In this document: positions 13,930-22,892 of the stretch, one piece after another
Layout: each line of letters starts with the position of its first letter
Numbering within the stretch: position 1 is the first letter of the stretch
NCBI GenBank assembly: GCA_030562195.1
Contig: CM060199.1
Location: 25,998,338-26,062,337 of the forward strand
DNA: 64,000 nt
Source: Nipponacmea schrenckii
Lineage: Eukaryota; Mollusca; Gastropoda; Lottiidae
Reading direction: 5' to 3'
The notes under the pieces: generated by a model
What the model saw: only the letters and a program-made list of their open reading frames with translations
What the model was told of the DNA's origin: nothing
Databases searched by the model: none
Program-made: the position numbers and the translations under genes

Positions 13930-13984
13930 TATGACGTCATCGAGGCGGGTCAGATACGAAACGAAAATGAACAATTTCAACATT
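13930..13984 (+). repeat. Left 55-bp terminal inverted repeat
   Basis: Matches the reverse complement of 22838-22892 at all 55 positions and then diverges abruptly inward. It starts with the palindrome ATGACGTCAT (13931-13940), a perfect CRE/ATF-type site. Confidence 0.92.
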
Positions 13985-14086
13985 CAAAAATTTAACATGT
14001 TAACACAATCTAAAAACATTCCTAATAGTTCTATACTATACAACCTATACTATACAACTCCTTTTATTTGAAAACTTTGCTACAAT

Positions 14087-16678
14087 ATGGATCACGATGA
14101 CGTAACAGAAATGAAAACACTTCTGAGACAGAAAATAAACAGATTGATATCATCTCTAAGCAATCAGCCTACAGTTAGTCAAGATACAATTGATGACATG
14201 GAGGTTACTCTTGAAATGTTGAAACAGTTGTCAACAATATCAGACGTTGAAAACATTAGAAAAGTATTTGAACAGGCGTATGTTATAATATCACAACAAT
14301 TGTGTGTTCAAAATGAGTATTTTTTTTTTAAACAACCAAAGCAATTACCATCTACTGGAGGAAGACCCAAATTTTTCATACCACAATGGTTTTTAGAGGA
14401 AATGATTCATGAAAACAATTTCAGTGTAGTTGATGTGGCACGTATGTTAAATGTCAGTGAGAGAACTATATCAAGGAATATGGCAGCATATGGAATACAT
14501 GCAAATTTGTGCACAAATATTTCAGATGTAGACCTTTGCACAGAAATTGAAAAGAGGAAACAGCAATTTCCTCATGCCGGTTATAGGACTGTGAGAGCCC
14601 TTCTCCAAGCAGATGGCATTTATGTTTCATGATCTAGGATAAGAGATGCTTGTCGTTTGGTAGATCCAGAAGGAGTTTTGTTTAGAAGACTTTTTCTAAA
14701 TGAGAACCGAATACATAGAAGGTGCTATAATGTTAGGGCCCCCAATGCCCTCTGGCACATCGATGGAAATCATAAACTAATAAGGTATTTTTTAATATTA
14801 TTTTAAAGAATTATCATTCTTACCCTTTTCCAAAATTTGGTAGATCCAGAAGGAGTTTTGTTTAGAAGACTTTTTCTAAATGTGAACCGAATACATAGAA
14901 GGTGCTATAATGTTAGGGCCCCCAATGCCCTCTGGCACATCGATGGAAATCATAAACTAATAAGGTATTTTTTAATATTATTTTAAAGAATTATCATTCT
15001 TACCCTTTTCCAAAATTTGGTAGATCCAGAAGGAGTTTTGTTTAGAAGACTTTTTCTAAATGTGAACCGAATACATAGAAGGTGCTATAATGTTAGGGCC
15101 CCCAATGCCCTCTGGCACATCGATGGAAATCATAAACTAATAAGGTATTTTTTAATATTATTTTAAAGAATTATCATTCTTACCCTTTTCCAAAATTCTT
15201 TATTAAGAGTGTATAAGAGACTACAGTTCATATGGATTTGAAATTTTGATGTTCATACTGTGTATATTGATTTCATGTAATGTAGATTCAAATTTCTTGC
15301 ATGTTCAATAAATATCTGTCTTATTCATTAAACATGTTAATGATATCTGGTTGAATTTAAAATCCATTTAGTTGAAAACTTTAATCTATTTGTTATATTA
15401 TAGATGGAGATTTGTAATACATGGGGGTATTGATAGCTATTCAAGGCTTCCTGTGTTTTTGCATGTCAGTACCAATAACACTTCTGATACAGTTTATACA
15501 GCTTTTATGGAAGCAGTTAGAAGATGGGGTTTGCCAGAACGAATCAGATCAGACAAGGGAGGTGAAAATGTGAAAGTGGCATCATATATGCTGAGACAAC
15601 GTGGAATTGGTTCATTTATTACCGGACGTAGTGTTCACAATCAAAGGTCATCTTTTTTTTTGTATAACAACATGATAGTGTGTGCTGTATATTGTGATCA
15701 ATGTATGTCTGCATTTTATTTGTTCTGACTCTGATTGAATTTTGATTCAATTTGAAATATTTTTGCATATGAAAAAAGATCGCTATTGATTTTAATTTTA
15801 GCTGTAGGCCTAATTAAATATTTAACAAAAGTTCATCTCTTATAATGAAATAAATTTATTGTAGAATTGAACGTCTTTGGAGAGAAATATGGAATGGATG
15901 CACTAATTTATTTCATCAAATTTTTCAACATATGGAAGCTGAGGAAATTCTAGATGTCAACAATGAAATCCATTTGCAAGCACTTCATTTTGTGTACATA
16001 GTCAGAATCCAGCAGCATTTAGATGTTCTTTGTGAGACTCTTATGAGAAGACCTTTGAGAACTGAGAGAAATAAGACTCCACTTCAGCTTTGGATCCAGG
16101 GCCAGATATTAGACCCACTTTTTACACATAATAATCAGGTTTGAATTGTTTACTTTTATGATAATCTGTTTGTCAGTAAATCAGAATTTTCACCATTTTA
16201 AACAAGAGCACAAGAGCAAGAGAATGATATATCCCAACACCTAGTTTTTTGGCATACCATGTACAAAACATTTAAGGCTTTTTATGTAGAGTTGTTGTTC
16301 CTGCTAAATCTGCATGGACAGAATTTAAGAAGAGAATTTATAAATGTCCCTGTTGGAGCTGCATAGTTTTCTTCCTCATTGCATATGTATCACGTTTAAG
16401 AAAATCAGACAAGAATTGTGTTGTATTGCATTATGTTTTATGTCATAAATGTAACCTGTACTTCTTATTGTAATTTTCAGGAAGAACTTGATATGGAAGC
16501 AATAGATATTGATACAGACATTTGTAGTTTTGAAACTGAAAACAATGCAGTTATTGTTCCGGAAACTAGGATGAATCACCACACATTGAATCAAATTAGG
16601 TTGAGGGAATCTACCTCTTTTGGAATAGATAATTATTTACATGTTCTCAGTGCATTGGAAGACCAAGATGGACATTGA
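14087..16678 (+). pseudogene. IS3EU-type DDE transposase, four exons, one nonsense codon
   Basis: Exons are 14087-14784, 15404-15646, 15865-16138 and 16481-16678. Donors start GT, acceptors end AG, and phases agree, giving 470 codons. The order is a helical N terminus, a helix-turn-helix (VVDVARMLNVSERTISR), an IS3-like linker (FPHAGYRTVRALLQADG) and an integrase-fold core. The core acidic residues are the Asp of WHIDGNHK, the Asp of RIRSDKGGEN and the Glu of QRIERLWRE, with 32 residues between the last two. An in-frame TGA at 14630-14632, most simply a CGA-to-TGA change, interrupts the linker. The end of exon 1 is also triplicated. It would cut and join the element's ends; this copy needs readthrough or help from another. 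Confidence 0.82.
14656..15197 (+). repeat. 180-bp tandem triplication of exon end and splice donor
   Basis: Three head-to-tail copies start at 14656, 14836 and 15016, differing by one base that I can see (tgagaac in the first, tgtgaac in the others). Each contains the last part of transposase exon 1, including the first catalytic Asp codon, the donor AAG|GTATTT and about 50 bases of intron. Confidence 0.93.
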
Positions 16679-22564: not shown

Positions 22565-22837
22565 CCTTAGGCTAATTGAAATCTAGAACAAAAAAAAAGG
22601 TTAATAATATATAAGCCGCCTATATAGGCCTAATGATAACAAATCACCAACATTAACACATTTCTTTAAGACTTCAAGACTCAAAATGCACAGAAAAGAG
22701 ATTAATAGTCGAAATTTATCAATGAATGACATGCCAAGCAAGACCTATACATTACCTAAATTCCTGTCGATACAATAGGCCTCTAAACACGTGAATTTAA
22801 CTCATAAAAATGTACCCAAAAGGGTGAAGGTCGTATT

Positions 22838-22892
22838 AATGTTGAAATTGTTCATTTTCGTTTCGTATCTGACCCGCCTCGATGACGTCATA
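22838..22892 (-). repeat. Right 55-bp terminal inverted repeat
   Basis: Perfect inverted match to 13930-13984, ending against the N gap. It contains the same ATGACGTCAT palindrome at 22882-22891, about 320 bases upstream of the ligase start codon. Confidence 0.92.

Follow-up and report, generated by a model that had tools for sequence, protein, structure and literature searches.

The window analysed here, 64,000 nucleotides from the gastropod Nipponacmea schrenckii, holds a transposon with a predicted ubiquitin ligase gene beside its transposase gene, and the question that this locus raises is whether the ligase belongs to the element and what it would do there. The element is a DNA transposon of IS3EU type and probably moves by cut-and-paste. 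An earlier note, made from the sequence alone, had described perfect 55-bp inverted repeats enclosing two genes, and this was confirmed: the repeats (Table 1) are 55 nt long, mismatch-free and 100% complementary, far beyond chance. Since the repeats begin TATGACGTCA, the element has TA..TA termini (TATGACGTCA...TGACGTCATA), and the identity of the repeats over 55 of 55 positions suggests a young insertion. No further full copy of the 55-bp repeat was found in the 399-Mb assembly, either with a 401-base query, whose 2 matches were the window's own two ends, or with a 19-base end pattern at up to 3 mismatches, which gave 20 matches (7 for the reversed pattern used as control), the exact ones being the window's 2 ends only. 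A CRE-like palindrome, TGACGTCA, lies near each tip of the element (13932-13939 and 22883-22890) and could, we assume, be bound by host CREB/ATF-type factors.

Table 1. Features of the element and its right flank, in window positions.
Feature	Position	Strand	Remarks
Left terminal inverted repeat	13930..13984	+	starts TATGACGTCA; TA terminus; ATATTT is the 6 bp just outside on the left
Transposase exon 1	14087..14784	+	N-terminal helix-turn-helix-like part and first D; in-frame TGA at 14630-14632
180-bp unit, three tandem copies	14656..15197	+	holds the end of exon 1, its donor and intron sequence
Transposase exon 2	15404..15646	+	second D
Transposase exon 3	15865..16138	+	putative E, NQRIERLWRE
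Transposase exon 4 and stop	16481..16678	+	
HECT ligase gene (predicted)	17407..22564	-	11 open exons, 691 aa; faces the transposase (convergent)
Ligase exons 1-6	22420-22564, 22170-22306, 21579-21896, 21287-21391, 20926-21009, 20678-20712	-	
Ligase exons 7-11	20212-20304, 19229-19694, 18471-18645, 18057-18251, 17407-17729	-	
Ligase exon 3	21579..21896	-	conserved N-terminal domain, 39-51% to four homologues
Ligase exon 4	21287..21391	-	C2HC finger 1 (C207-C226)
Ligase exon 7	20212..20304	-	C2HC finger 2 (C279-C298), UBZ-like below cut-off
Ligase exons 8-10	18057..19694	-	HECT N-lobe region
Ligase exon 11	17407..17729	-	HECT C-lobe with C657 and -4 Phe (F688 of 691)
Right terminal inverted repeat	22838..22892	-	55/55 complementary to the left repeat
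500-N assembly gap	22893..23392	.	abuts the right repeat; covers the right flank and target duplication of the window copy

The transposase gene was modelled as four exons of 470 codons, with one in-frame TGA (codon 182) read through. The IS3EU-like DDE transposase with a nonsense codon that had been claimed was borne out: the protein is an IS3-like DDE transposase with a match to Pfam rva_4 at E 2e-75 and a sub-cut-off match to rve at E 2.3e-7, and D226, D283 and the putative E316 were taken to form the DDE motif. Because the gene is broken by the TGA, and the end of exon 1 with its donor is present three times in the 180-bp units, the copy in the window would now be mobile only with enzyme from another copy. 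Database searches returned 2539 relatives of the transposase, and among the 120 listed molluscs come first, followed by priapulid, coral, fish, sponge, hemichordate and metagenome proteins.

The convergent gene had been read as a 685-aa ligase open over 11 exons; the 11 open exons stand, but the length modelled here is 691 aa. Nine of its ten introns are GT-AG and one, after exon 9, is GC-AG. From its signature of catalytic Cys and -4 Phe the product is predicted to be a HECT ubiquitin ligase. The profile of the ligase family matched HECT among solved structures at E 4.7e-11 over a stretch comprising the N-lobe only, Pfam HECT was found in 9 of 12 family members at E up to 0.01, both lobes of the HECT fold are present in the predicted fold of a homologue, and C657 and F688 are invariant in the 12-sequence alignment; on these four grounds the claim of a HECT ligase with its catalytic Cys in place held. 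Taken by itself, the window ligase gave no Pfam HECT match up to E 0.1, which counts against the explanation preferred below, and a phmmer HECT similarity of E 0.0045. In the comparison of the family profile with solved structures, the C-lobe line-up with Rsp5 is not significant by itself. The pattern C-x2-C-x11-H-x3-C occurs twice, with finger profile scores of 14.9 bits for zf_UBZ (cut-off 25.6) and 22.5 for zf-C2HC_2 (cut-off 27). For the exon 3 domain no Pfam match was obtained, and hints of a ubiquitin-like fold were weak.

Recurrence of the gene pair in the N. schrenckii genome was assessed by protein searches with the window's two proteins and one relative of each as queries, in which 64 of 168, 61 of 166, 90 of 395 and 99 of 399 candidates were scored. 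Ligase matches numbered at least 67 with the window query and at least 61 with the relative, and transposase matches at least 97 and at least 106, respectively. Matches were merged into clusters, and second copies on contig C3 (G000) were dropped; on this contig transposase and ligase matches are repeated at an offset of 29,626,336 bases, like two near-identical halves. Clusters were labelled intronless where matches crossed intron sites, the rule being looser for matches added by the transposase-relative search. Among the 43 intron-containing transposase clusters of the scored matches, a ligase cluster lay within 10 kb in 15 and within 20 kb in 20, and the nearest ligase was convergent in all 20, window included; the 20 include dependent cases, in that one ligase serves as partner for two transposase clusters at C8:27.25-27.26 Mb and that C806 and C3:21.69 Mb are copies of one family. 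Other paired relatives lie at C11:11066009-11079037, C3:17831628-17843243, C5:17292417-17305177 and C8:23051225-23061577. Under uniform placement, about 0.1 transposase cluster would be expected to have a ligase at 10 kb or less, and with side and strand left to chance a quarter of the pairs would be convergent. None of 24 intronless transposase clusters had a ligase within 10 kb (one, divergent, at 18.7 kb). The two-gene transposon architecture is real and recurrent, and the claimed association of the ligase with the transposase was supported.

Two findings that would have spoken against that claim had been named beforehand, namely a ligase that is a single-copy host gene and copies of the repeats that lack the ligase. 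The first is not so, the ligase forming at least 42 match clusters in the genome. As to the second, no ligase-free copy with the exact window repeat was found, but among relatives a partner within 20 kb is absent for 23 of the 43 intron-containing transposase clusters, as it is for 22 of 42 ligase clusters, and this counts against the explanation preferred below. Six of the 23 partnerless transposase clusters lie on short contigs and several matches contain stop codons; real absences of the ligase are likely among them too.

Dispersal of the ligase is evident from near-identical copies at C8:23.06 Mb and C7:34.81 Mb (99% over 1.49 kb) and from a young family of six copies (L016, L018, L023, L025, L027 and L032, on C1057, C341, C246 and C296), about 96-97% alike, of which C1057 holds three; among these four contigs, a transposase match was present only on C341. 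Stop codons occur in many gene copies across the genome.

Ends related to those of the window were found at two transposase-bearing loci, C11 (11.21 Mb) and C4 (0.69 Mb), which are 97% alike, have unrelated flanks and both start TATGGAGGGTGAAAATGG. These are the best-defined ends, and no ligase was detected within 20 kb of them, which again weighs against the preferred explanation. A genome search with this end gave 18 matches, including an inverted pair that delimits a 7,686-bp element at C389:15719-23404 (TATGGAGGG..CCCTCCATA), with TATGG..CCATA ends and CCTTTC on both sides, a 6-bp target site duplication. The C389 element is known from its ends alone, as no match to transposase or ligase occurred there in the four protein searches, and this too was counted against that explanation. 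The same type of end is present at C322:5505, 1.8 kb before a ligase exon 3, in an arrangement unlike that of the window. IS3EU elements have TA..TA termini and usually 6-bp duplications, according to the part of the source available (PMC10045372), and the TA..TA termini and the 6-bp duplication of the C389 relative fit this description.

The pairing likely predates the families of the N. schrenckii genome, judging from comparison with other species. In a quick transposase tree, built without a reference IS3EU sequence, ligase-paired copies fell into several mollusc clades; three of these clades adjoin Patella proteins, and the paired transposase at C1:12899771 groups outside them with a Crassostrea protein. 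Such a spread would be expected of a pairing older than the genome's own families. Transposase and ligase gene trees agree only in part, which counts against the preferred explanation. In Mercenaria, the relatives of ligase and transposase, LOC128550670 and LOC128550671, lie on one record of 64,330,741 bases; consecutive LOC numbers usually denote neighbouring genes.

The earlier note had proposed looking for purifying selection on the ligase across copies. Such selection was seen between families, where dN/dS was 0.15 and 0.16 (two finite of three pairs, dS being saturated in the third), but not within recent ones, where dN/dS in three near-identical copy groups ranged from 0.57 to 2.27 (18 finite of 19 pairs, with few changes). 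Between the window ligase and its relatives dS was mostly saturated, and differences at third positions exceeded those at first and second positions. For the transposase, dN/dS was 0.42-2.32 in nine within-family pairs, and dS was saturated in two between-family pairs. The ligase is therefore constrained between families and not within recent ones: once inserted, copies drift, but in the lineage as a whole the ligase stays intact. Such a pattern would be predicted for a ligase that is important to the spread of the element, in a manner that the pattern itself does not tell.

With relatives of the two genes in convergent arrangement at about 20 sites of the genome, a role of the ligase in the movement of the element itself is likely, and its status as an accessory of the element, whatever its target, is held to be quite probable. 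Opinion on its target is about evenly split, with a lean to the element's own complex. Our preferred reading, held tentatively and at somewhat less than even confidence, is that the ligase is an accessory of transposition that acts on the element's own transposase-DNA complex, this target being favoured on the ground that the ligase stays with a single transposase lineage and a single arrangement of the two genes. Enzymes of the HECT family accept ubiquitin from an E2 on their Cys and then transfer it to a bound target. Under the proposed mechanism, the transposase would cut and join the TA..TA ends, with a 6-bp duplication such as that observed in the C389 relative; C657 would be loaded with ubiquitin from a host E2; the fingers and N-terminal domain may hold ubiquitin and target; and modification of the end-bound transposase would lead to dismantling of the joined complex, so that repair could finish. 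Bacteriophage Mu has its transposase cleared by an unfoldase, and a ubiquitin version would be the eukaryotic counterpart. The bolder proposition of an animal IS3EU lineage in which a ubiquitin ligase is a core transposition gene, ubiquitinating its own joined complex for disassembly and repair, is considered unlikely.

Direction against the host is the nearest competitor: the ligase would ubiquitinate a putative silencing or defence factor and so let the element escape repression. This is rather doubtful, although the same structural, pairing and selection evidence fits it and a TET/JBP gene of fungal IS3EU elements is read as an escape from silencing in the accessible portion of PMC12730594, because a gene directed at the host might be expected to pass between lineages of transposons, like the TET genes of fungi, whereas the ligase was seen here with one transposase type only. 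The earlier note had left open whether the ligase is cargo or an accessory, and had named host repair, silencing and transposase turnover as its putative targets; of the two roles, that of accessory is favoured, both by the convergent pairing, which recurs, and by the pattern of selection. A passenger, that is, a carried host gene idle in transposition, would suit the 23 of 43 clusters without a nearby ligase and the related ends at which a transposase but no ligase was detected; it is made distinctly improbable by the return of the convergent pair in divergent lineages and by a ligase that is constrained from family to family while individual copies drift, and cargo useful to the host would likewise be constrained, but free drift of its copies would then not be expected. 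It is very improbable that domesticated transposon genes, resident in the host as pairs, account for the recurrence and that the window repeats are accidental or a later event. Terminal repeats sought around paired loci, including the C10 and C732 pairs (each a divergent locus), were found nowhere beyond the window, a result that would suit this reading and weighs against the preferred one, but the perfect 55-bp repeats there, the near-identical dispersed ligase copies, their neutral drift and the stop codons in many copies all argue against it.

Among known HECT ligases, HUWE1, Rsp5/NEDD4 and E6AP share with the window-type ligase the two lobes (in the homologue's predicted fold), the catalytic Cys and the -4 Phe; the window ligase differs in being much diverged, with its own N-terminal domain and two C2HC fingers, and its type in being multicopy and linked to a transposase. 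In RAG-like transposons the second gene is an accessory of the recombinase. They resemble the window element in having two convergent genes between terminal repeats, as far as the available text of PMC7204232 describes them, and differ in that the transposase is unrelated and the RAG2-like protein is not a HECT ligase. With IS3EU as portrayed in the part consulted of PMC10045372, the element shares TA..TA termini and a DDE integrase-like transposase, together with the 6-bp duplication of a relative; its convergent HECT ligase sets it apart, none being reported in the literature examined. Fungal IS3EU elements also have accessory enzyme genes, one for an alpha-kinase, which is oriented opposite to the transposase, and one of the TET/JBP type (excerpts of PMC12730594), although these are other enzymes in fungi rather than animals and the TET genes move among transposon superfamilies. 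Accessory enzymes of IS3EU are already known in fungi; no description of a HECT ligase paired with IS3EU was found in the literature searched, whose scope excluded Repbase, where an entry may exist, and most subscription papers. A 2012 meeting report, in its available section, mentions DNA transposons from several superfamilies that have proteins of host origin, to which a part in regulating transposition is ascribed (PMC3520738), and G2E3-like matches are noted in unclassified fish repeats in the accessible passages of PMC5638112. One mollusc ligase homologue (P0011) bears the name 'G2/M phase-specific E3 ubiquitin-protein ligase-like', a likeness by name. If a HECT ligase is tied to a single lineage of transposases in several groups of molluscs, protein ubiquitination would become part of transposon machinery, and the pair would offer a compact system for studying the clearance of transposition complexes or the evasion of host control. 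Some of the genes that carry an annotation as HECT or G2/M-phase-specific E3 ligases in molluscs may then belong to transposons.

Transposons are abundant around the element in the window. To its left, translations at 6403-13648 gave what we take to be BEL/Pao-like retroelement pieces, amid which a presumably piggyBac-like reading frame lies on the other strand (10301-11947); right of the gap, 23393-23782 is presumed to be a piece of a pogo-like transposase, and the frames at 60049-61366 were taken to be THAP-like and DDE-like. Within the element, ligase intron 8 contains at 18840-19195 an insert labelled SINE-like by eye, with a tRNA-like B box (GGTTCGAATCC), parts of which match L074 and L028.
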